Shown in pieces: positions 35,440 to 46,245 of a stretch of 60,323 bases of DNA. The notes below the pieces were generated by a model. It was not told the origin of the DNA, did not search any database, and saw nothing but the letters and a program-made list of their open reading frames with translations. The stretch is from Bryobacteraceae bacterium (GTDB taxonomy: Bacteria; Acidobacteriota; Terriglobia; Bryobacterales; Bryobacteraceae): the NCBI GenBank assembly GCA_023511855.1, contig JAIMAR010000002.1, positions 1 through 60,323 of the forward strand. The letters run 5' to 3'. Within the stretch, counting starts at the first letter, position 1; each line of letters starts with the position of its first letter. The position numbers and the translations under genes were made by a program.

Positions 35440-36186
35440 TCAGCGCGGGAGGATCGTGACTCGGGGCCCGCCGGGAGAAACTCCATGCAGCAGGCTGTCG
35501 AGCAGGAACTGGGAGGCGTGATCAAAATGCTGGTGGATAATTGCACAGGCGCCCTCCGGATCGCGGGCGATCAACCGGTCCAAAATCGCCAAGTGCTCGC
35601 GGTGCGAGGACAGGATTTTCTCGGGCAGTTTGATCGAAAGGCTCCGGAAGCGGGTAAAGTGATCCTGAAGCGAAAGAATGAGCCGGCGCAACTGTTCGTT
35701 TTCGCAGTGTTCGACAATCAGTTGATGGACGCGCTGCCCGGTTTCGGACATGCCCTGGGTGTCGATTTCTCCCGTTTCGCTGAACGTGGACAGCCTCCAC
35801 CGCAGTTGCTCGAGGGCTTCGATGGGCGCGCGAAGCGCCGCCTCGCGCGCGGCCTCCCCTTCCAGAAGCCGCCGTACCCGGTACAGGTCCCGGATCTGGC
35901 GCAGATCGAGGTGCGAGACGAACGTGCCCATCCGGGCGCGGATTTCAATCAGCCCCTCGCGCTCCAGCCGGAGGGTCGCTTCGCGGACCGGCGTGCGGCT
36001 CAGGCGGAGCTCCTTCACATATCTCTCAATGGGCACCGCATCGCCCGGCCTCAGCCGGTTGGACAGGATATCGGCCTTGATCGCCTGGTAGGCCAGTTCG
36101 ACGGCGGAAGGCGCCTCCGGGGAGTCATTCGAGGCTTGGGCGGAGCGCGCGCGCCGCAGGCTTCGGGAGATCACTTTGCCGCTCAT
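35440..36186 (-). CDS. GntR-family regulator, FadR/FCD subfamily (copy 1)
   Basis: About 248 residues: an N-terminal winged helix (AYQAIKADILSNRLRPGD, LRLSRTPVREATLRLEREGLI in two parts, MGTFVSHLD) and an all-helical FCD ligand domain with the metal-binding pattern (LLEGEAAREAAL, HQLIVEHCENEQL, SSHREHLAILD). FCD regulators sense organic or sugar acids. A TATAAT (36196-36201) precedes ATG 36186 by nine bases, which favours that start over the ATG six bases upstream. It diverges from the MFS gene heading the catabolic operon. It is strikingly like the second regulator at 44.2 kb; both probably control this locus. Confidence 0.93.
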   Translation of the reverse strand: MSGKVISRSLRRARSAQASNDSPEAPSAVELAYQAIKADILSNRLRPGDAVPIERYVKELRLSRTPVREATLRLEREGLIEIRARMGTFVSHLDLRQIRDLYRVRRLLEGEAAREAALRAPIEALEQLRWRLSTFSETGEIDTQGMSETGQRVHQLIVEHCENEQLRRLILSLQDHFTRFRSLSIKLPEKILSSHREHLAILDRLIARDPEGACAIIHQHFDHASQFLLDSLLHGVSPGGPRVTILPR

Positions 36187-36195
36187 TGTCATCTC

Positions 36196-36272: not shown

Positions 36273-37580
36273 ATGAACATGCCTCAAGCCACGCGTCCCG
36301 CGGAGGCGGCCGCCGCGGCGGCTCCGTCGTCCCCTCCCGGACGGCGGCGGATCGAGCTGACCCTGTGGCAGTGGAAGCTGTGCGGGTTGCTTCTGTTGGC
36401 GACGGCCTTGAGCTATTTGGACCGCCAGGCCCTCAGCGTCGTGGCGCCCGTCGTTGCCGGGGAGCTGAACCTGGACAATGAGCAGCTCGGGCGGCTCCTG
36501 TCGGCCTTCTTCTACGCCTACGCCGCAATGCACATCGCCGTGGGCTGGATTCTCGACCGCTACAATATCCGCTATACCTACGGGCTGTTCGTAGCGCTAT
36601 GGTCCTGCTCGCAGGTGCTGGCCGGCTTCGCGCGGGGTTTCCGGGAGCTGTTCCTGTGCCGCCTGTTGCTGGGAGCGTTTGAGACGGCCGGACAGACCGG
36701 CGCGGCGCGCATTATTGCCCGCACGTTGCCTCCGCAGGAGCGCGCCTTCGCCAACGGCCTGATGATGAGCGGCGGCAGCATCGGGGCGATGTTGGCCCCG
36801 GTATTAATGATCTTCTTGGCCAACCGCTACGGCTGGCGATTCGGCTTCATCGTTCTCGGCGCGCTGGGCCTACTCTGGGCAAGCGCATGGGTGTGGTGGT
36901 TCCGGCCTCCGGCGGCGGTTCTTCAGGGCACGTCGAACCGGGCCACGCTGAGCGAAGCCGACCGGATCCGGGTCATCCTCCGCAATCCGCGCTTCTGGGC
37001 CTGTGTCGCGGGAGCGGCATGCACCATCCCGATTCTTCACATCAGCGCCGCCTGGGTTCCCACCTATTTCGTGCAGGAGTGGGGGATGAAAGTCAGCGGG
37101 GCTCTGAGCGGCTATCTGTTTCTGGTTTACGCCGGACTTGACATCGGGTTTATCGGCGGCGGGGCGGCGGTTTCCTGGCTGATTTCGCGGGGGGATTCGG
37201 TGGCGCGGGCGCGCGTGCGGATCATGTGGATCGCGGCAGCTCTCATGATGACGGCGGGGCTGGTGCCGTTCGCGCCGGCTGTCGGTTTCGCCGTCGCCGG
37301 CATCTTCCTGCTGAATGTCGGCCGCGCCTGCTGGGGCGCTCTGTTTCTGGCATTCAATCAGGACATCGCTCCGGGCCGGGTCGGACTGGTTGCAGGGGTG
37401 ATGGGCTTCCTTGGATCGCTGATGGGTGCGTTGCTTGTGTGGCTGATTGGATGGATAACCAAGACTCGGGGCTTTGATGGGCCGTTCTGGATGATCGCCG
37501 TACTGGTGCTGGCAGGCACGATTCCGGTGGCAACGGCCCGCTGGGAGGATACCAAACAGGAGGCTCCAAAGAACCTATGA
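36273..37580 (+). CDS. MFS transporter, anion:cation symporter (hexuronate/acid-sugar) type
   Basis: About 435 residues with twelve membrane helices. The first helix region SYLDRQALSVVAPVVAGEL and GWILDRYNIRYTYGLFVALWS match the ACS family (ExuT, GudP, GarP), importers of sugar acids. The start ATG 36273 has no ribosome site and follows a -10 hexamer by eight bases, so a leaderless message is possible; an ATG six bases later is an alternative. It is the first gene of an eight-gene operon and its stop overlaps the next start (ATGA). Its specificity is inferred to be a four-carbon or related acid sugar from its neighbours. Confidence 0.92.
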   Translation: MNMPQATRPAEAAAAAAPSSPPGRRRIELTLWQWKLCGLLLLATALSYLDRQALSVVAPVVAGELNLDNEQLGRLLSAFFYAYAAMHIAVGWILDRYNIRYTYGLFVALWSCSQVLAGFARGFRELFLCRLLLGAFETAGQTGAARIIARTLPPQERAFANGLMMSGGSIGAMLAPVLMIFLANRYGWRFGFIVLGALGLLWASAWVWWFRPPAAVLQGTSNRATLSEADRIRVILRNPRFWACVAGAACTIPILHISAAWVPTYFVQEWGMKVSGALSGYLFLVYAGLDIGFIGGGAAVSWLISRGDSVARARVRIMWIAAALMMTAGLVPFAPAVGFAVAGIFLLNVGRACWGALFLAFNQDIAPGRVGLVAGVMGFLGSLMGALLVWLIGWITKTRGFDGPFWMIAVLVLAGTIPVATARWEDTKQEAPKNL

Positions 37581-38626
37581 AACATCCCGTAGCTTTAGCC
37601 GCAGGCGATGGAATCGGGCCCGAGCTGGTGGAGGCCTGCCAAGAAGTCTTCCAGGCCGTGGGCGCACCTGTGGAGTGGGTTGAGACGCCGGTCGGGAGGT
37701 CGGCCGTGGCCCGCTTCGGCGAGGAGCTGCCCTGGTCCTCGCTGGAAACCATGAAGGAACTGGGCGTCGTGCTGAAAGGCCCCCTGATCGCGGAACGTCT
37801 CAGCGGCGGCGCCATCGTGCGCGCCCCAAATGGCACGCGCGTCCATCCCAGCATTAACAACGGGTTGCGCCGGGAGCTGGATCTGTATTGCAATCTTCGG
37901 CCGGTCCGGGGTTTTGCCCCTGTCTCCGGCTGGTATTCGTCGATGGACCTGGTCATCGTCCGGGAGGTGACGGAGGACATCTACAGCGGCATTGAGCGCA
38001 GCATCGGCGAAGATTGCGCCGAAGCGGTGAAAAGGATCACGCGCCAGGCGAGTCGCCGCATCGCCCAATTCGCTTTCGAATACGCCGTGCGATACGGCCG
38101 CCGGCGGGTGACGGCCGTCCACAAGGCCAATGTACTGCACAAGACCGATGGATTGTTTTTGCAGTGCGTCCGCGAAGTGGCCGCCTCGTATCCCGGCATC
38201 GCCAGCGACGACAGAATGGTGGACGCCGCCAGCTACTACATGGTGAAAGATCCGGCGGCGTTCGACGTACTGGTGATGCCAAACCAATATGGCGACATCC
38301 TGTCGGATCTGGCGGCGGGCCTGGCCGGCAGTCTCGGACTGGCACCGGGCGCGAACTTCGGCGAAAAGACGGCGATGTTTGAAGCGGCTCACGGAGCGGC
38401 CCCGGACATTGCAGGCAAAGGCATCGCCAACCCGATCAGCCTGATCCTTTCCGGGGCCTTACTTCTCGACCATCTGGGCGAACGGGAGGCGGCCGACCGC
38501 ATCCGGCTCGCCGTCGAGCTCGTTCTCGCCGAAGCCCGCGTGCTGACGCCCGATCTGGGCGGCTCGGCGACCACCCGGCAACTGACCCAGGCCATCTGCC
38601 TGGCTTGTGAAAAGGTGGCCGCATGA
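37577..38626 (+). CDS. Isocitrate/isopropylmalate dehydrogenase-family oxidative decarboxylase
   Basis: A 349-residue beta-decarboxylating dehydrogenase. It starts VALAAGDGIGPELVEA and shows the catalytic Tyr/Lys region (VREVTEDIYSGIE; VHKANVLHKTDGLF), metal aspartates in MPNQYGDILSDLAAG, and the nucleotide loop EAAHGAAPDIAGKGIANP, whose sequence suggests NAD rather than NADP. Relatives oxidise isocitrate, isopropylmalate, tartrate or malate. In an operon with a DUF1537 kinase and class II aldolase it occupies the place usually taken by a threonate/erythronate dehydrogenase (LtnD/DenD type). Substrate not known. Both ends overlap neighbours by four bases. Confidence 0.9.
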   Translation: MKHPVALAAGDGIGPELVEACQEVFQAVGAPVEWVETPVGRSAVARFGEELPWSSLETMKELGVVLKGPLIAERLSGGAIVRAPNGTRVHPSINNGLRRELDLYCNLRPVRGFAPVSGWYSSMDLVIVREVTEDIYSGIERSIGEDCAEAVKRITRQASRRIAQFAFEYAVRYGRRRVTAVHKANVLHKTDGLFLQCVREVAASYPGIASDDRMVDAASYYMVKDPAAFDVLVMPNQYGDILSDLAAGLAGSLGLAPGANFGEKTAMFEAAHGAAPDIAGKGIANPISLILSGALLLDHLGEREAADRIRLAVELVLAEARVLTPDLGGSATTRQLTQAICLACEKVAA

Positions 38627-39438
38627 CGCTCCAGGGGGCCATCGACACGCACGTGCACGCCGGGCCGGATGTGCGCCCGCGCAAGTCCACGGCCTACGAA
38701 CTGGCGCGGGCGGCGCAGGCCGCCGGCATGCGGGCCATCGTGTTGAAGAACCACCATTGCTCGACCGTGCCCCTGGCCGCCGCGCTGAGTGAGGCGCTGC
38801 CCGGCATTCGCGTCCTCGGCGGGCTTGTGTTGAACCACGCCGTGGGCGGATTCAATCTCGAGGCCGTCGACGCGGCCCTGCGCATGGGGGCCGCACAAAT
38901 CTGGATGCCGACGTTGTCGGCCGAAAACGAATGCGCCTACCGCGGCCATGCCGGCGCCGGACTGCAAGCTCTCGATGAAGCGGGCCGCCCGCGGCCGGAG
39001 CTGGTTGCAGTTATTCGCCGGATCGCCCGCTCCGGAGCCGTGCTCGGCACGGGTCATCTCTCCGCCCGGGAGACCGCCGCGGTGGTCGAACTGGCCCGGC
39101 AAGAGGGGGTGCGCGCCATTCTGGTCACACATCCCGAGATCGACTTCATCGCCATGGATCCGGAGGTGCAGTGCGCCCTGCGCGGACCGGGACTCTTCTT
39201 CGAACGCTGCTTCTGCCGCACCGGATTCCGGCGCGACTGGGCGGGACTCGCCGCCGACATCCAGCGCGTGGGCGTCGAGTCCACCGTGTTGGCTACGGAC
39301 CTGGGCCAGCCGGATAATCCCCATCCTGTCGATGGGCTCGAAATCATCGCGGTCCGGCTGACCGAACAAGGCATCGGCACCGACGCCCTGCGGCGCATGA
39401 TGGTGGAGAATCCCGCGATCGCCCTCGGATTGGACTAG
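38623..39438 (+). CDS. DUF6282 protein, amidohydrolase-like metal site
   Basis: A 271-residue protein recognised as DUF6282. It begins GAIDTHVHAGPDVRPR, giving an HxH pair (H10, H12); other likely metal ligands are H44-H45 (KNHHCST), H145 (GTGHLS), H170 (VTHPEID) and D226 (ATDLGQ), an amidohydrolase/PHP-like pattern. A lactonase or hydrolase step on a sugar-acid intermediate is possible but unproven. Its ATG overlaps the dehydrogenase stop (ATGA), and three bases separate it from the racemase-like gene. Confidence 0.8.
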   Translation: MTLQGAIDTHVHAGPDVRPRKSTAYELARAAQAAGMRAIVLKNHHCSTVPLAAALSEALPGIRVLGGLVLNHAVGGFNLEAVDAALRMGAAQIWMPTLSAENECAYRGHAGAGLQALDEAGRPRPELVAVIRRIARSGAVLGTGHLSARETAAVVELARQEGVRAILVTHPEIDFIAMDPEVQCALRGPGLFFERCFCRTGFRRDWAGLAADIQRVGVESTVLATDLGQPDNPHPVDGLEIIAVRLTEQGIGTDALRRMMVENPAIALGLD

Positions 39439-39441
39439 CCT

Positions 39442-40095
39442 ATGCACCTGGCCCTGATTCACACCTCTCCGGCCGCCATCACGCCGTTGGCGCGCTACTA
39501 TGCGGAGCACGAACCCGAATGGCGCCTGACCCATCTGCTCGACGACGGGATTCTGCACCTGTTTCGGGAATCCCGCGAAAGCGACATCGAGGCGGCGCTC
39601 GCCAGCCTTGTTGAGCGTGCGGCCGGCTACGGCGCCCGCGCCGCCATCGTCACTTGCTCGGCGGTGACTCCGGCCCTGTTGTCCCGCTTGCAGATGCGCT
39701 CGCCCATGCCGCTGATCAAGATCGATGAGCCCATGGCACGGGCCGCGGTCTCGCAGGCTCGCCGCATCGGCGTGCTGATCTCGTTCCCCCCCACGTTGCA
39801 GCCCACGGTCTCGCTGCTCGAGGACACGGCTGCCTCCCTGGGCCGCCGGGTGGAGATCGTCCCCCAGGTGTGCGACGGAGCCTACGCGGCCCTGCTGGCC
39901 GGCGACACCGCAACTCATGACCGGATTCTGCATTCCGGCGCCCGGCAACTCACCGCACAATCCGCGGAAGCCATTGTTCTCGCGCAAGTCTCCATGGCCC
40001 ACCTGCGCGACGAGCTTGCTGAGGCGCTTTCGCTTCCGGTGTTTTCCAGCCTCGAAACCAGCCACGCCGCCGTCCGGGAGGCCCTCGGCCTATGA
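39442..40095 (+). CDS. Aspartate/glutamate racemase-superfamily protein
   Basis: A 217-residue protein with the two-lobed Asp/Glu racemase fold. The first catalytic Cys is present (VTCSAVTP, C72), but where the second Cys is expected the protein has LAQVSMA (Q182). One-Cys members of this superfamily include decarboxylases and isomerases, so a true two-base racemase is unlikely. In this operon it may isomerise or lactonise an acid-sugar intermediate; no substrate can be assigned. Its stop overlaps the next start as ATGA. Confidence 0.8.
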   Translation: MHLALIHTSPAAITPLARYYAEHEPEWRLTHLLDDGILHLFRESRESDIEAALASLVERAAGYGARAAIVTCSAVTPALLSRLQMRSPMPLIKIDEPMARAAVSQARRIGVLISFPPTLQPTVSLLEDTAASLGRRVEIVPQVCDGAYAALLAGDTATHDRILHSGARQLTAQSAEAIVLAQVSMAHLRDELAEALSLPVFSSLETSHAAVREALGL

Positions 40096-40919
40096 TCCGG
40101 CTTTGCTATACGGTCGCCACACCCGACTGTGAAGACCCCAATATGCTCGCCCTCCGCGGGCCGCTCGAGCGCAGCTTCGCGCTGCTCGCCCACGCTGGAT
40201 ACTCCGCAGCGGAGCTGATGGTGCGGGACCCGCAGTTGCTCGACGCGCGGCAAATCCGCCGGCAGGCTTCCGATGCCGGACTCGAGCTGCCCGCCGTCAG
40301 CACCGGACAGTTGAGAAAGGAGCGCGGGCTGCAATTGTGCGCGCTGGACCCGGCCTTGCGCGGCGCGGCTGTGGATGCTCTGCTCTGCGTCGTCGATTTT
40401 GCGGCTGAGATCGGTGCGGGCGTCGTCAACATCGGCACGCTGCGCGGCCACCTTCCGGCCGGCTCCGAACGTCGCACGGCCCGCGCGGCGGCCGCCCGTG
40501 CGCTGGAAACTGCTCTGGCGCACGCGGCAGCGGCGAGCATCGCGATCGCGCTCGAACCCCAATGCCGTTACGTCAGCAACTGGCTCAACACCGTGGGCGA
40601 AACCCTGGCGTTTCTCCATGGTTTCTCCGGTCCCCGCCCACGTATGGTCTTCGATTGCTACCACGCCCTGCTGGAAGAGCGGTCTGTGGCCGCAGCCCTG
40701 ATTCGCGCCTTTCCTCATCTGGCCTGGGTCCAGGTTTCCGATAGCAATCGAGGGGCCCCCGGCTCGGCCCAGCATAACTTTGGCGAGTTGATTCGGGTCC
40801 TCAAAGCCCTCGGCTACGAAGGCTACCTATCGGTAGAGTGCCTGCCGTCGGCGGATCCGGCCGCCGCGGTGCAGGCCGCGCAAAGACACTTGATGCCATT
40901 TTTGGAGGAAAACGAATGA
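40092..40919 (+). CDS. Sugar phosphate isomerase/epimerase-like TIM barrel (possible OtnI role)
   Basis: A 275-residue xylose-isomerase-like TIM barrel without a signal peptide, thus cytosolic. Probable metal ligands are E155 (ALEPQ), D188 and H191 (FDCYH), D217 (SDSNR) and E249 (SVECLP). In known four-carbon acid-sugar clusters a hydroxypyruvate-isomerase-like protein (OtnI) converts 2-oxo- to 3-oxo-tetronate; this gene sits in the same neighbourhood with DUF1537 and aldolase genes. The match is to the fold and context, not to OtnI itself. Both ends overlap adjacent genes by four bases. Confidence 0.82.
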   Translation: MIRLCYTVATPDCEDPNMLALRGPLERSFALLAHAGYSAAELMVRDPQLLDARQIRRQASDAGLELPAVSTGQLRKERGLQLCALDPALRGAAVDALLCVVDFAAEIGAGVVNIGTLRGHLPAGSERRTARAAAARALETALAHAAAASIAIALEPQCRYVSNWLNTVGETLAFLHGFSGPRPRMVFDCYHALLEERSVAAALIRAFPHLAWVQVSDSNRGAPGSAQHNFGELIRVLKALGYEGYLSVECLPSADPAAAVQAAQRHLMPFLEENE

Positions 40920-42064
40920 TGTTACGAACTCTGCTGTTGTCGGCGCTGCTTGCCGCCGCCAGCGCCACGAGCTTGAAGGCGATCGAGATTGCCACCGGCA
41001 AGATGCTCGGGCCAAGATACGACCAGCGGGCATTTTACGTCCGGGAACCGGGGGGCCAGTGGCAAAAAACTTACACCGGACCGCAATACCGGCCGGAAGC
41101 CGCCGGGAGGCTGATGAATCTACGCATCGCGCAGGCGCTGTTCCACGACGAATGGCTGACCGAAGGCACGGTCGACCCTGACCAGAACACCGACCGGGTC
41201 ATCGCCGCTCTCGATACGTACCGCAAACATGGCATTCTCGCCCTCAACGCGAGCCTCCAGTGCGGCAACCCCGGCTACAACCGCGAAGTGCCCGAAATCA
41301 AACGTGTGAATGCCGCCAAGGCCGGCCCCGGCAAGGGATACCTGTGCAGCGCCTTCCTGCCCGACGGCACAATGAAACCGGCCTGGCAGAAACGGTTGCT
41401 TCGGCTGGCGCGCGCGCTGGACGAACGCGGTATGATCCTCAACTTGATGTATTTCTATCAGTCGCAGGACGAGGTTCTCAAAGACCCGCAAGCCATCCGC
41501 AACGCCGTGAGAAACGCCACCGACTTCCTCATTGACAACAACCTCCGCAACGTGATCATTGAAATCGCCAATGAACAGGACGTGCGCGGGTGGGACCACG
41601 ACCTGTACATCGAACGCGACACGGGCGAGCTCATCGCCATTGCGCGCGAGCGCTTCCACCTTAAGAATGCGCCGTTCCGCCTTCCGATTTCCGCATCCTC
41701 GGGACCGTCCATGAAGCTTTTCGACAGTACGACCGTGCACGCCGACTTGACCATCATTCATGGCAACAACCGGCGCATCGTCGAGAAGTACGAAAGGGTC
41801 CGATTTCTGTACGGCCATCCGCTGGCGCCCGGCCCAATTCTCATGAACGAGGACGACAACGGCCGCGAGACGAGCGAAGAAAACCTCCGCAACGAGCTGG
41901 CCAGTTGCGACGCGGTGTGGGATGGCGGCGGGAGCTGGGGCTACATGCCCTGGCGCCAGACTCAGATGTATCCGTTCCGCTATTACAACCCCACGGGGGA
42001 TTCGCAGGACGAGCGCTACTTCCGGGCCGTCCTGGAGCACATTAGGAAGAAAGTGTTCCGCTGA
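40916..42064 (+). CDS. Secreted glycoside hydrolase-like protein (TIM-barrel, clan GH-A-like)
   Basis: About 382 residues from ATG 40916, with GGAGG upstream and ATGA overlap with the preceding stop. A signal peptide (MMLRTLLLSALLAAASATSLKA) is followed by a cellulase-superfamily-like barrel: HDEWLTEGTVDPDQ, LNLMYFYQSQDE, IIEIANEQD (putative acid/base E220) and ILMNEDDNG (putative nucleophile E312). Spacing of about 92 residues fits a retaining glycosidase. The exact GH family was not recognised. An exported enzyme inside a chain of cytosolic catabolic genes is unusual and suggests that it releases the sugar the operon consumes. Confidence 0.75.
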   Translation: MMLRTLLLSALLAAASATSLKAIEIATGKMLGPRYDQRAFYVREPGGQWQKTYTGPQYRPEAAGRLMNLRIAQALFHDEWLTEGTVDPDQNTDRVIAALDTYRKHGILALNASLQCGNPGYNREVPEIKRVNAAKAGPGKGYLCSAFLPDGTMKPAWQKRLLRLARALDERGMILNLMYFYQSQDEVLKDPQAIRNAVRNATDFLIDNNLRNVIIEIANEQDVRGWDHDLYIERDTGELIAIARERFHLKNAPFRLPISASSGPSMKLFDSTTVHADLTIIHGNNRRIVEKYERVRFLYGHPLAPGPILMNEDDNGRETSEENLRNELASCDAVWDGGGSWGYMPWRQTQMYPFRYYNPTGDSQDERYFRAVLEHIRKKVFR

Positions 42065-42067
42065 GCC

Positions 42068-43333
42068 ATGCCCGCCGGCCCGCTGCAATTCGCCGCCATC
42101 GCCGACGATTATACCGGCGCATCGGATCTCGCCGGGATGCTGCACCTGGCCGGCGTTCCGGCCGTGCAAGTCTTCGGCGTACCGGAGGATCCCGTGGAAG
42201 AGGCTGGGGTGGCCGGCGGCGCGGTCATCGTGGCCCTCAAGACGCGCTCGGCCCCGCGCGAAGAGGCAGTGGAGCTTTCCCTACGAGCCCTTCGGCAACT
42301 GCGGAAACTCGATCCGCGCCAAGTCCAATTCAAGTACTGCTCCACCTTTGACTCCACCCCGCGCGGCAACATCGGCCCCGTCACCGAGGCGCTGCTCGAC
42401 GCCATGGGCGTGGCCTGCACGGTCGCTGTACCCGCTCTGCCCGTCAACGGCCGCACGCAGTATCTCGGCCACCTTTTCGTCGAAGGGCGCCTGCTGGCCG
42501 AGTCTCCCCTCCGCGACCATCCCCTGAATCCTATGACGGACTCCAACCTGGTCCGCTGGCTGGCCGGCCAGACCAGCGCTCGCGTGGGTTTGGTTCCCTT
42601 GCCCGTCGTGCTCGCCGGGCCCGGCGAGATTCAGCGGGTTTTGCGGGAACTGGAGTGCCAGGGCGTCCGCATCGCGCTGGTCGATGCGGTCACCGACGCC
42701 GACCTTGACGCCATCGCCGCCGCTGTCGCCGACATGCCGCTCATCACCGGCGGCAGCGGCATCACCCTCGCCCTGGCCCGGCTTTGGCAGCGCCAAGGCG
42801 GCCTCGGCTCTCCCCCCGCAGCACCGCGGCTGCCGCGCGGCAGGGGAACCCTCATCTTGGCCGGCAGTTGCTCGGCCGCCACCCTCGAACAACTCGACCG
42901 CTGGGAGGCCGCCGGGCACGCCATTTTGCGCGTCTGCGAGCCGGCGCAAGTCGCCTCGGCGGCCGGCTATGCCCGCGCGGAAATCGCCCGCACGGGCATC
43001 GCCACCATCGCGTCTAGCGCCACACCTTCCCGCCGCCACGCCGACCCTCAAGCCGCCCGGGCATTTGAAACCGCCTTCGGCGGCCTGGCTGCACAGGTGG
43101 TGCGCGAGGAGTTGGCCGACAACATCATCGTCGCCGGCGGCGAAACTTCCGGCGCCGTCGTGGACGCCCTAGCCGTCAAGGCCGCCCGGGTCGTCGGCCT
43201 GGTCGCTCCCGGCGTGCCTTCCCTGCTCAGTCTCGACGGGCGCGGTCTCTGGCTGGTTCTCAAATCCGGCAACTTCGGAGGCCCGGACTTCTTCGCCGAC
43301 GCCCTCCGCCAGCGCGAGGAATTATGCAACTGA
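42068..43333 (+). CDS. DUF1537 four-carbon acid sugar kinase (OtnK/DtnK family)
   Basis: A 421-residue DUF1537 kinase. The N-terminal substrate domain starts IADDYTGASDLAGMLHLAG (family hallmark ADDxTGA-D), then KYCSTFDSTPRGNIGPV. The C-terminal nucleotide-binding domain has ILAGSCSAATLEQL and IIVAGGETSGAVVDAL. The family phosphorylates four-carbon acid sugars, 3-oxo-tetronate (OtnK) or D-threonate (DtnK), at the 4-hydroxyl. With a class II aldolase rather than PdxA2 next to it, the OtnK reaction is more likely. It ends ten bases inside the aldolase gene, so translation is coupled. Three bases separate it from the hydrolase gene. Confidence 0.92.
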   Translation: MPAGPLQFAAIADDYTGASDLAGMLHLAGVPAVQVFGVPEDPVEEAGVAGGAVIVALKTRSAPREEAVELSLRALRQLRKLDPRQVQFKYCSTFDSTPRGNIGPVTEALLDAMGVACTVAVPALPVNGRTQYLGHLFVEGRLLAESPLRDHPLNPMTDSNLVRWLAGQTSARVGLVPLPVVLAGPGEIQRVLRELECQGVRIALVDAVTDADLDAIAAAVADMPLITGGSGITLALARLWQRQGGLGSPPAAPRLPRGRGTLILAGSCSAATLEQLDRWEAAGHAILRVCEPAQVASAAGYARAEIARTGIATIASSATPSRRHADPQAARAFETAFGGLAAQVVREELADNIIVAGGETSGAVVDALAVKAARVVGLVAPGVPSLLSLDGRGLWLVLKSGNFGGPDFFADALRQREELCN

Positions 43334-43962
43334 AGGAAATGCTCCAGGAGCTTTGTGACGCGGCCGCGTCCTTCTATGCTCGCGGCTATGCCTTCGGCTC
43401 GACCGGAAATCTCAGCATCCGCTGCGGGGACGAGGTCTGGATCTCTCCCACCGGCGCTTCGCTGCGCGCCCTGACGCCGGACGAGCTGGCCTGCATCGAC
43501 GCCAACGGCGCCCGGCTCAACGCCAAAAGTCCCTCGAAGGAGTATCCATTTCACCTGGCCGCCTACCGCGCCGCCGGCGCACGCGCCAGCGCGATTGTGC
43601 ATCTGCACTCGACCCACGCCGTCGCGCTTTCGTGTCTCGACTCGCTCGACCCGGCCGAGCCGCTGCCGGTCTTTACGCCTTATTACCTGATGCGCGTCGC
43701 GCCTCTGGCCGTCATCGACTACTTTCCTCCGGGCTCGGCCGAGCTGGCCGCCGCCATCGGCCAAGCGGCCGCGGCCCACGATTGCCTCCTGCTGCGCAAT
43801 CACGGCCTGGTCTGCCTGGGAAGGACGATGGCGGTGGCCGTGGACCGCGCCGAAGAGCTGGAAGAAACCGCCCGCCTGTATTTCCTGCTGCGCGGCGAGA
43901 AGGTGCGGCTGCTCAGCCCCGCCGAGCGCGATCACATCGCGCACGCTTATCCCCGGCGTTGA
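43324..43962 (+). CDS. Class II aldolase/adducin protein, probable 3-oxo-tetronate-4-phosphate decarboxylase (OtnC-like)
   Basis: A 212-residue zinc enzyme of the FucA/AraD fold: ARGYAFGSTGNLSIR, ISPTGASLRAL, catalytic Glu E73 (SKEYPFH), zinc ligands H93 and H95 (VHLHSTH) and a third in LLLRNHGLV. OtnC relatives decarboxylate 3-oxo-tetronate-4-phosphate to dihydroxyacetone phosphate, which enters glycolysis. Fuculose-type aldolase activity is the alternative. It is the last gene of the operon. A GGCGGCG-AAGG-CGCCGCC hairpin (43981-43998) follows but lacks a T tract. Confidence 0.9.
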   Translation: MQLKEMLQELCDAAASFYARGYAFGSTGNLSIRCGDEVWISPTGASLRALTPDELACIDANGARLNAKSPSKEYPFHLAAYRAAGARASAIVHLHSTHAVALSCLDSLDPAEPLPVFTPYYLMRVAPLAVIDYFPPGSAELAAAIGQAAAAHDCLLLRNHGLVCLGRTMAVAVDRAEELEETARLYFLLRGEKVRLLSPAERDHIAHAYPRR

Positions 43963-43998: not shown

Positions 43999-44133
43999 CA
44001 CAGAGAGGATGCGCCAGTTCCCCGCGTGGGGATTTTGGCAAACGGCGGTGAATGCCGGCGCAGCCCTTGGTCTACTCATCGTCCCAATCCGGATCAACAG
44101 AATGCAAGCTGAATTTCACGCGTTGCACGGCTG

Positions 44134-44163
44134 TTCATCTCTGGCCGTCGAGTCGAGTACAAT
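44134..44163 (+). promoter_or_regulatory. Putative promoter of GntR copy 2
   Basis: TTCATC (44134-44139) and TACAAT (44158-44163) are 18 bases apart. The -10 hexamer ends seven bases before the ATG at 44171, again leaving almost no leader. Confidence 0.4.
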
Positions 44164-44170
44164 GCATCTG

Positions 44171-44914
44171 ATGCGCCGCAAGTCCGCCCGCGCCCATTCT
44201 CGAAACTCCAGCAAGCCGAGTGAATCCGGGTCCGCAACCAGCGGGCTATCGGCCAAGGACCGCGCTTACCAGGCCCTCAAGGCCGACATCCTGACCAATC
44301 GTCTCCGGCCAGGGGATCCCGTCCCGGTGGAGGAGTATGTGAGGGATTTGCGCTTGAGCCGCACGCCGGTGCGGGAAGCGGCATTGCAGCTCCAACGCGA
44401 GGGCCTCATCGACATCCACCCGCGGCTGGGCACGTTCGTCTCCTATCTGGATCTGCGGAAGATCCGCGAGATGTACCGCGTCCGCACGCTTCTGGAAGGG
44501 GAAGCCGCACGCGAGGCGGCCCTGCGGGCGCCCACCGAAGCGCTGGAGGAGTTGCGGCGGGATCTGGCCGCGTTCAACCAGACCGGAGAAATCGACGTGC
44601 GGGGCATGTCGGAAACGGGCAAACGGGTCCATCAGATCATCGTCGGACACTGCGGCAACGAGGTGCTGCGTTCCATGATCCTCTCCATGCAGGATCATTT
44701 CACCCGCTTTCGCAACCTGTCGATCCAACTGCCCGAGAAGGTTCTTTCCTCGCACCGCGAGCATCTGGCGATCGTCGACAGCCTGATCGCCCGGGACGGC
44801 GACCGCGCCGCGGCGCTGATCCAGGAGCATTTCGAGCACGCCTGCCAATTTCTGCTCAACAGCCTGCTCGACGGATCGGCGGCCACAGGCGCCCGGCTGA
44901 CGATCGCTTCCTGA
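44171..44914 (+). CDS. GntR-family regulator, FadR/FCD subfamily (copy 2)
   Basis: About 247 residues from ATG 44171; an in-frame ATG at 44162 overlaps the -10 hexamer and is less likely. Winged helix (AYQALKADILTNRLRPGD, LRLSRTPVREAAL, LGTFVSYLD) plus FCD domain (LLEGEAAREAALRAP, MSETGKRVHQIIVGHC, LSSHREHLAIVD, HFEHACQFLL). It is a close paralogue of the regulator at 35.4-36.2 kb, alike through both domains and differing mainly in the first 30 residues. The pair brackets the catabolic operon, each reading outwards from it. It probably responds to a pathway acid and may share operators with copy 1. Confidence 0.92.
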   Translation: MRRKSARAHSRNSSKPSESGSATSGLSAKDRAYQALKADILTNRLRPGDPVPVEEYVRDLRLSRTPVREAALQLQREGLIDIHPRLGTFVSYLDLRKIREMYRVRTLLEGEAAREAALRAPTEALEELRRDLAAFNQTGEIDVRGMSETGKRVHQIIVGHCGNEVLRSMILSMQDHFTRFRNLSIQLPEKVLSSHREHLAIVDSLIARDGDRAAALIQEHFEHACQFLLNSLLDGSAATGARLTIAS

Positions 44915-44923
44915 GCCCGCGTC

Positions 44924-44964
44924 TTGACGCCGCTGTTGCATGTCAGTAGAATATCACTGTCATG
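44924..44964 (+). promoter_or_regulatory. Promoter and palindromic operator of the phosphatase-like gene
   Basis: TTGACG (44924-44929), 17 bases, TAGAAT (44947-44952): a strong promoter ending nine bases before the ATG. A 26-bp near-palindrome, CATGTCAGT-N8-ACTGTCATG (44939-44964), covers the -10 and the start codon; arms match at 8 of 9 positions. The arm CATGTCAGT also occurs at the TonB receptor promoter (50943-50951). Confidence 0.6.
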
Positions 44965-46245
44965 TACAGATGCTTAAGCGTGCTGGCGACCCTTCCGCTA
45001 TGGCTGGCCGCGCAGACCGCGCCCGCGCCTTCGGATCAGATCCACCTGGCCTGGACGCGCGATAGCGCGACAACGATTACCGTTGTTTGGAGAACCATGG
45101 ACGCCTCCGTCCCGTCCACCGTCGAGTACCGGCGGCAAGGAGAGAGCCGGTGGCGCCGCGCGACCGGCGGTCCCCGTCCCAGCGGCACAGAGGGCCGGTT
45201 GCACGAGGTCCTGGTGCAGGGTTTGGAGCCGACTTCGAGATACGAATACCGCGTGGCGGGACCCCAGGGCAGTTGGAGCGCCGTTTACTCATTCCTCACC
45301 GCACCCCGGCCGGGCGGGTCCTTTGAAGCCGTCTTCGTCGCCGACACAGGGTTGGACGGAAGACTGGACGGCCTTTCAACCGGCACCCGCGAGGTGATCG
45401 AGGCCGTGGCCAAGCTCAACCCCACAGTGATTCTCTGGGGCGGCGACGGCGCCTACTATGACACCGACAAGCGCTTCGGCACACTGGACAGAACCATCGA
45501 CTACTGGTTCAACATGGTGATGCCGTTCGCCGTGAAGGCGCCGATCATGCCCACCTACGGGAATCATGAGATCTTTCTGAAAGAAGGCTATCTGTTCTGG
45601 GCCGACCGGTTCCCGACGCCGGAGGGTTTTGACAACCGGCGTTACTATTCGTTCGATGTGGGCGACGCGCACTTTGTGTCGATCCTGGCCGCCGATTCGG
45701 AAAGCGGCGCGTTGCCGGAAACGGTCCTGCGCTGGATCGACGCGGACCTGGAAAAGGCCCGCAAATCCGGTAGGAAGTGGCTCGTCCCCTATCTTCACGT
45801 GGCGCCGTTTTCCGACGGCTCCAATCACCCTTCCAACCTGGACTACCGAAGACAACTTGGCCCCATTTTTGAAAAACATGGCGTGCGCCTCGTGCTGACC
45901 GCTCATGACCAGTCCTACGAGAGGACCTTCCCGCTGCGAGGCGTGCCGGACAAGATCGAGATCACCAGCAACGCCAAGGACTGCTTCGGCGCGAGCGACG
46001 GCACCGTGTACCTGAAGGTGGGACCGGGCGGCAAGCAGAGCAACATCAACCGCGGATTCGCCAACTTCAAGACGAATCCGCCGCCCGCGCACACCGCGTT
46101 CCGTGACAACACCGCTCATCATTTCGCAAGGCTGATTTTCGAACCGCAAAGCGTCCGCGTTCAGATCTTCGCCGTGCTGCGCGGCAAGCCCGAGTGGGTA
46201 CAGGACGAGTTCCTCTACACGCTGGGCTCCTGCGGGGGACGCTGA
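44962..46245 (+). CDS. Secreted purple-acid-phosphatase-like metallophosphoesterase
   Basis: A 427-residue protein: signal peptide (MYRCLSVLATLPLWLAAQ), an N-terminal fibronectin-III-like domain (about 25-115: ITVVWRTMD, VQGLEPTSRYEYRV) and a calcineurin-like metallophosphoesterase domain. Metal residues appear at D128 (ADTG), D162 (GGDGAYYD), N201-H202 (GNHE), H279 (YLH) and H315 (TAHDQSYER). The usual final GHxH is AHDQ here, so one His is Gln317, and activity may be altered. It probably releases phosphate from a phospho-compound outside the cytoplasm. It starts 47 bases after GntR copy 2 but has its own promoter and operator. Confidence 0.88.
   Translation: MYRCLSVLATLPLWLAAQTAPAPSDQIHLAWTRDSATTITVVWRTMDASVPSTVEYRRQGESRWRRATGGPRPSGTEGRLHEVLVQGLEPTSRYEYRVAGPQGSWSAVYSFLTAPRPGGSFEAVFVADTGLDGRLDGLSTGTREVIEAVAKLNPTVILWGGDGAYYDTDKRFGTLDRTIDYWFNMVMPFAVKAPIMPTYGNHEIFLKEGYLFWADRFPTPEGFDNRRYYSFDVGDAHFVSILAADSESGALPETVLRWIDADLEKARKSGRKWLVPYLHVAPFSDGSNHPSNLDYRRQLGPIFEKHGVRLVLTAHDQSYERTFPLRGVPDKIEITSNAKDCFGASDGTVYLKVGPGGKQSNINRGFANFKTNPPPAHTAFRDNTAHHFARLIFEPQSVRVQIFAVLRGKPEWVQDEFLYTLGSCGGR

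Follow-up and report, generated by a model that had tools for sequence, protein, structure and literature searches.

A probable secreted glycosidase, of a family unrecognised by Pfam and NCBIfam, that perhaps works with an acid-sugar pathway in a soil Acidobacterium

Introduction

Why would a gene for an apparently exported protein lie in a tight run of genes that seem to serve the breakdown of a small acid inside the cell? This question is raised by positions 40916-42064 of the window, by which we mean the whole 60,323-nucleotide stretch of DNA analysed here, from a soil Acidobacterium. A preliminary description of this gene had claimed a signal peptide, a paired NE/NE-type catalytic signature and an unrecognised glycoside hydrolase (GH) family, and had proposed that the release of an extracellular glycoside is coupled to its breakdown by cytosolic enzymes encoded alongside. 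Our analysis of the sequence and of a structural model points to a real and probably secreted glycosidase, which is perhaps working with an acid-sugar pathway. The family to which it belongs counts hundreds of members at least, spread over many bacterial phyla and the haloarchaea, most of which are nameless in Pfam and NCBIfam where scanned. Its recurring dehydrogenase and kinase neighbours provide a short list of testable substrates for an orphan glycosidase, and may give access to a pathway by which Acidobacteriota use acid sugars in the decay of plant litter.

Results and Discussion

The gene and its operon

The target gene is part of an eight-gene run on the plus strand (36273-43962), with seven junctions of -4, -4, +3, -4, -4, +3 and -10 bases, which by its spacing is one operon. 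The features of this run and its flanks are as follows.

35440..36192, minus strand: GntR/FCD protein (PF00392 and PF07729), divergent from the operon and likely its regulator
36273..37580, plus strand: MFS transporter (PF07690; start from our own gene calling)
37577..38626, plus strand: Iso_dh-family (isocitrate/isopropylmalate/tartrate type) dehydrogenase (PF00180, 311 bits)
38623..39438, plus strand: DUF6282 protein (PF19799, 213.5 bits)
39442..40095, plus strand: Asp/Glu/hydantoin racemase-like protein (PF01177)
40092..40919, plus strand: AP_endonuc_2 TIM-barrel isomerase or epimerase, by family assignment
40904..40909, plus strand: likely ribosome-binding site GGAGGA, read off the sequence, inside the gene upstream of the target
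40916..42064, plus strand: target, probable secreted clan GH-A-type glycosidase (ORF, 382 aa), with signal-peptide-like residues 1-22, putative acid/base E220 and putative nucleophile E312
42068..43333, plus strand: 3-oxo-tetronate kinase, OtnK (NF043035, 423.5 bits, cut-off 350; PF07005 and PF17042)
43324..43962, plus strand: class II aldolase, OtnC-like (PF00596; NF043034 is the best family, at 216 bits below its cut-off of 250)
44009..44914, plus strand: second GntR/FCD regulator (PF00392 and PF07729), downstream

The junctions of the target ORF are as tight as had been described: an ATGA forms a 4-base overlap with the upstream gene (40092-40919), a 3-base gap separates the target from the kinase ORF (start 42068), and GGAGGA lies 6 bases ahead of the target ATG. 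Each of the seven other products can be assigned to a Pfam family; one of them, the MFS protein, is a transporter and so belongs to the membrane and not to the cytosol. The nearest NCBIfam subfamily of this transporter is that of the D-galactonate transporters (TIGR00893, 161.7 bits, below the cut-off of 395). The dehydrogenase passes no curated NCBIfam cut-off, and its nearest solved relatives are NAD-isocitrate dehydrogenases; the DUF6282 protein has one match among PDB sequences (E 0.094) and, judging by its operon slot only, might be a hydrolase or lactonase; and the AP_endonuc_2 protein falls short of both IolO (167.6 bits, cut-off 300) and OtnI (NF043033, 51 bits, cut-off 325). As far as its gene families tell, the operon probably serves the breakdown of a small acid sugar.

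The secreted-type N-terminus proposed for the target is borne out by hydropathy, the 12-residue Kyte-Doolittle maximum being 2.2 at residues 6-17 and 1.1 beyond residue 30. Furthermore, residues 2-17 form a helix in the AlphaFold model, and a signal-peptide-like N-terminus is likewise predicted by hydropathy in the eight clade orthologues that were compared with the target. The GH family was indeed not recognised: the target has no match in Pfam at E 1, falls into 0 NCBIfam families and, when searched alone against PDB sequences, returns chance matches only (actinohivin, E 0.4 and 0.63). Sequence and model together suggest that the target is probably an exported glycosidase of a family unrecognised by Pfam, NCBIfam and PDB sequences. 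Among the titles and opening lines of abstracts listed, mostly from outside subscription journals, neither the target family nor a cluster of glycosidase, Iso_dh and DUF1537 genes was found.

Distribution of the family and conservation of its neighbourhood

Matches to the target occur in 50 of 101 related genomes and in 9 of 396 genomes sampled across the phylum, its own genome being counted in both cases, and one contig scan matched at least 594 stretches, at least 550 of them encoding relatives. The 80 stretches that were kept derive from Acidobacteriota, Bacteroidota, Verrucomicrobiota, Planctomycetota, Poribacteria, Latescibacterota, Chloroflexota, Armatimonadota, Kiritimatiellota, Hydrogenedentota, a Streptomyces and three haloarchaea. 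NCBIfam names none of four relatives scanned, and Pfam misses most of the relatives scanned. In a quick tree, which left out L060, L076, L091, L107, eight loci sharing contigs with others, and L045, L070 and L077, at which no target gene was called, the clade of the target comprises 26 rows, all of them Acidobacteriota or of its own family or order (SH-aLRT 99). A further member, 37% identical to the target, is encoded on a different contig of the window genome.

Some relatives are fused to other domains. The target domain lies behind a glucuronyl-esterase domain in L152 (6660-8966), a two-domain order that is our interpretation of the search output, and before a GH115 C-terminal domain in L149 (861-2915), and it is combined with beta-lactamase-family domains in L119, L121 and L153. 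Parts of the family therefore belong with plant-wall decay. By hydropathy, two of the haloarchaeal relatives, L097 and L126, are without a hydrophobic N-terminus, so export is not a family-wide trait.

Neighbours were counted as same-strand genes within 8 kb (tblastn, 1e-10) at 112 loci, a count that does not include the window itself, drops eight same-contig duplicates as well as L045 and L077, and ignores contig ends. An Iso_dh gene is present at 14 of these loci, in Acidobacteriota and Bacteroidota, and none at the other 98; further partners are Amidohydro_2 (10 loci), Gfo/Idh (8), MFS (7), DUF1537 kinase (5) and Cyclase-family hydrolase (3) genes, and 86 loci show no queried partner. Within 5 kb, an Iso_dh gene accompanies at least 9 of 63 family members in the related genomes (66 matched places minus three second fragments of one gene), the window being one of the nine, against about 0.4 expected; the corresponding P of 3.5e-10 is rough, having been computed with rounded values (3.3 genes per genome, 6.1 Mb). 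On the tree, linkage to Iso_dh switches state at least 10 times, gains and losses not being told apart. Because some relatives adjoin the same kind of dehydrogenase, the enzyme and the pathway may work together.

The linked clusters differ in their make-up. The second copy in the window genome stands in a run of target, Iso_dh, Amidohydro_2 and MFS genes with 4-base overlaps, that between target and Iso_dh included, and in the related genome G057 the target is followed by Iso_dh, Amidohydro_2, Gfo/Idh, apiosidase-like, OtnC-like and OtnK-like genes, in that order; L063 is a linked cluster with an apiosidase-like gene. In Bacteroidota, the clusters at L150, from the cultured Lunatibacter salilacus, and L152 start with target, Iso_dh, Cyclase and DUF1537 kinase, and that at L095 has the same genes rearranged, the DUF1537 kinase being present in all three. 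The gene after Iso_dh thus varies between DUF6282, Amidohydro_2 and Cyclase, and we infer that these share a task such as lactone opening. The Amidohydro_2 neighbour has no match among PDB sequences at E 0.001, and the Cyclase neighbour matches kynurenine formamidases.

Orthologues of at least 50% identity are present in nine genomes, the window's own counted, and catabolic partners lie beside four of them (G000, G005, G016 and G010). They were not seen beside the other five, where some contigs are about 5-10 kb long. The nearest orthologue (80%), in G005, keeps MFS, Iso_dh, DUF6282 and racemase-like genes, and the gene that follows its target belongs to the ThuA family; kinase, aldolase and AP_endonuc_2 genes are absent from this cluster, and OtnK has no match at E 1e-30 in this 84%-complete genome. 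Across the 101 genomes, OtnK is present in 17. Genome G055 lacks the target but carries an Iso_dh gene that is 61% identical, and no further operon gene was seen in the stretch concerned (L162). The operon link of the preliminary description is therefore partly lost in relatives, with no partners seen beside five of nine orthologues, and partly stands, in that Iso_dh recurs beside family members. Both GntR/FCD regulators that flank the operon match one and the same gene of the G005 cluster (L044; 75% and 69%) and hence look like paralogues.

These patterns bear on a reading in which the target is an active secreted glycosidase whose substrate is unrelated to the acid-sugar enzymes, having been placed among them by chance or being co-induced with them on plant litter. 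We consider this possible, if doubtful. The Iso_dh link is unseen at 98 of the 112 loci, the nearest orthologue retains only part of the run, and the glucuronyl-esterase, GH115 C-terminal and beta-lactamase-family fusions are partners in wall decay; however, Iso_dh recurs above chance, its linkage having changed 10 times or more along the tree, in two phyla and with kinases alongside.

Fold and relationship to known glycoside hydrolases

The AlphaFold model of the target, made with 78 aligned sequences, is a TIM barrel (pLDDT 91.7) whose strands, numbered by counting the listed elements of the model in order, are residues 68-70, 109-113, 174-180, 213-218, about 258-262, 279-282, 308-312 and 340-343. 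The model accords with clan GH-A in its (beta/alpha)8 barrel, in an Asn-preceded Glu after strand 4 as the putative acid/base (strand 213-218, followed by N219-E220) and in a Glu that ends strand 7 as the putative nucleophile (strand 308-312, ending in E312). The paired NE/NE-type signature is present just as it had been reported, at N219-E220 and N311-E312, and its Glu pair is conserved.

Among 999 chains picked by Foldseek and aligned by VIA-align, 995 have a Z of 8 or more, and the best 50 of the 999 are mostly GH5, GH1 and GH140. Foldseek ranks a GH5-type exo-mannosidase first (E 1.4e-8, TM about 0.5) and a GH140 apiosidase eighth. By VIA-align, it is this apiosidase, 8t9w, that matches best (Z 25.4, rmsd 2.9, 282 residues aligned), followed by a putative glycoside hydrolase (Z 24.1), GH5 enzymes (Z 22-24) and BT_1012 (5msy, Z 23.4). 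An hhalign comparison of the target-family profile with four apiosidase-like proteins gives 82.8%, E220 and E312 being aligned with Glu residues that are invariant in those four, and when an 18-member profile is searched against the PDB, a GH5 cellulase is matched with an E of 0.13, the alignment covering the NE motif.

Compared with the GH140 apiosidases (8t9w and 5msy/BT_1012; PF13204), the target is thus alike in fold and in its aligned Glu pair, but its identity is about 10% and PF13204 is matched at E 1 by none of the 18 members scanned (the target and 17 relatives), the likeness being one of fold and profile only. The GH5 mannosidases, mannanases and cellulases are similarly close in fold and are weakly matched in profile searches around the NE motif, whereas the target has no match to PF00150 at E 1; Pfam Cellulase is weakly matched by 4 of the 18 (best E 0.0056), and its cut-off is passed by one relative only, L093 of Streptomyces (25.1 against 23.5). 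Since the target reaches the gathering score of neither PF00150 nor PF13204, only a resemblance to GH5 and GH140 is claimed here. A divergent GH140 (apiosidase) or GH5 member with the usual substrates would fit the 8t9w match, the aligned Glu pair, the Streptomyces relative and the apiosidase-like gene in the L063 cluster; we nevertheless deem it quite unlikely, given the lack of any Pfam match of the target at E 1, the absence of PF13204 from all 18 members, and the modest scores with Cellulase and the GH5 profile. Judged against Pfam, NCBIfam and PDB sequences, the target may represent a new GH family, as the preliminary description had suggested.

Conservation of the catalytic pair

Both Glu residues are present in 94 of 108 aligned members; E220 is lost in 13, of which 11 also lack E312, and one row is cut off. 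In alignment A4, for which L091, L107 and L153 were left out of the 80 stretches and proteins over 420 residues were cut to 400, E220 is invariant in 78 rows, although this invariance is partly built in, the named loci having been picked by patterns holding both motifs. As both motifs were thus part of the scan patterns, a fairer test is offered by a crosswise check and by rows picked by BLAST. In the former, among the named loci, finds made with the E312 pattern only carry E220 in 11 of 11 cases and those made with the E220 pattern only carry E312 in 20 of 20, and in the latter (n=37) both Glu are present in 23 rows, E220 is missing from 13 (E312 also from 11 of these) and one row is cut off. 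All 13 losses of E220 amount to a single change on the tree, on one branch, and such joint decay of both positions in the same branch would be the behaviour expected of a catalytic pair.

That the target is not a hydrolase, and is a carbohydrate-binding or otherwise non-catalytic barrel, is highly unlikely: the persistence of E220-less members across one related family, where many genomes carry them, does indicate that the fold can be kept without the Glu pair, but the target keeps N219, E220, H282, N311, E312 and W341, and the loss is confined to one branch. The E220-less clade (L050-L059 and L078-L080) is still conserved, mostly in one related family (f3), and possibly consists of non-catalytic barrels; several of its members adjoin a Gfo/Idh gene and a fumarase-type lyase.

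A candidate acid-sugar pathway

Among the matches listed, Iso_dh-family genes number one to eight per genome in 100 of the 101 genomes, and the window genome has five matches in all. The window enzyme was considered as a plain housekeeping isocitrate dehydrogenase, NAD-isocitrate dehydrogenases being nearest among solved proteins. This seems less likely in view of the five matches in the genome and of the strong divergence of the linked enzymes, the window type being 30-44% identical to those from beyond its own clade. The 12 linked dehydrogenases that were aligned share R98, R108, R129, K183, D216, D240 and D244, which we take to bind and act on the malate-like core in the Iso_dh superfamily, and these residues therefore point to a tartrate- or malate-like acid. 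As for tartrate dehydrogenase itself (TIGR02089), the linked Bacteroidota enzyme of L150 just passes the cut-off (470.8 against 470.4), whereas the window enzyme, at 220.2, is far below it. In 8 of the 12 (L061, L063, L065, L069, L074, L095, L150 and L152), Phe stands where the window enzyme has the Tyr of its TEDIY motif. The idea that the Phe-bearing dehydrogenases need no isomerase is a weak one, as L044 and L046 keep the Tyr yet no AP_endonuc_2 gene was seen in these stretches.

A four-step route for threonate and erythronate, through LtnD, OtnI, OtnK and OtnC, is outlined in PMC12540250. OtnK is encoded in the operon by its NCBIfam score; the scores for OtnC (216 against 250) and OtnI (51 against 325) remain below their cut-offs, and the operon dehydrogenase is of PF00180 Iso_dh type, an LtnD-type enzyme not being found in the operon. 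The operon therefore resembles this route, as outlined there, in OtnK, in an OtnC-like class II aldolase and in an AP_endonuc_2 isomerase-type protein, but differs from it in having Iso_dh for LtnD and in the addition of the DUF6282, racemase-like and secreted glycosidase proteins. From these pathway genes, a glycosylated acid sugar, at which the preliminary description had hinted, is plausible as the natural substrate.

The reading that we prefer, and to which we would give about an even chance, is that the exported glycosidase frees a tetronate- or tartrate-like acid, or a precursor sugar, which is burned by the operon to triose phosphate. In this scheme, for which we infer export, activity, a retaining mechanism, the substrate and every pathway step, the target would hydrolyse a small glycoside by the two-step retaining mechanism, with E220 as acid/base and E312 as nucleophile, and would release a tetronate- or tartrate-type polyhydroxy acid, or else a sugar that is converted into one. 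The MFS protein would bring this product into the cell, where the Iso_dh enzyme would oxidise an alpha-hydroxy acid, a metal hydrolase, whose family differs between clusters, would open a lactone and the AP_endonuc_2 protein would act as isomerase; phosphorylation by OtnK and decarboxylation by the OtnC-like aldolase would then yield dihydroxyacetone phosphate. An exported glycosidase with a coupled pathway is favoured by the fold, the Glu pair, the recurring neighbours and the OtnK score above its cut-off. It is weakened by the 98 of 112 loci without Iso_dh, the five of nine orthologues without partners and the OtnC and isomerase cut-offs that were missed, as well as by an Iso_dh enzyme in the place of LtnD whose nearest solved kin act on isocitrate, by the lack of a hydrophobic N-terminus in L097 and L126, and by a Foldseek TM of only about 0.5 with an exo-mannosidase, not an apiosidase, in first place.

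A more specific version, which we regard as unlikely, is that this family, new to the libraries covered here, releases a tartrate-type branched C5 acid from plant glycosides, that Iso_dh converts it to an oxo-tetronate, and that OtnK and OtnC carry this on to dihydroxyacetone phosphate. The Iso_dh enzyme would here both oxidise and beta-decarboxylate the acid, and Phe in place of the TEDIY Tyr could release the enediol as the 3-oxo form, making the isomerase dispensable. An example of such an acid is 2-C-hydroxymethyl-tartrate, a carboxylated relative of apiose. We know of no pathway of this kind leading from a branched C5 acid through Iso_dh to OtnK and OtnC. Aceric acid, hydroxycitrate and ascorbate-derived acids are other conceivable substrates.

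Additional observations

Two homologues titled as Acidimicrobiia, L084 (VFZE01000033.1) and L120 (VFZE01000025.1), cluster with Acidobacteriota, and their title is probably wrong. In the haloarchaeal stretch L126 (4670-16007), the target homologue lies amid genes for the use of sugar acids, which encode an enolase-superfamily protein, Ldh_2, DUF6807, a class II aldolase and an FGGY kinase, and in L097 (7932-13783), also haloarchaeal, it is near an RraA-like protein. Finally, the operon of the window is followed at 44962-46245 by a gene for a putative secreted fibronectin/phosphatase-type protein (here labelled PAP), and a gene 63% identical to it is found at L046 (238-1509), immediately before the target homologue.
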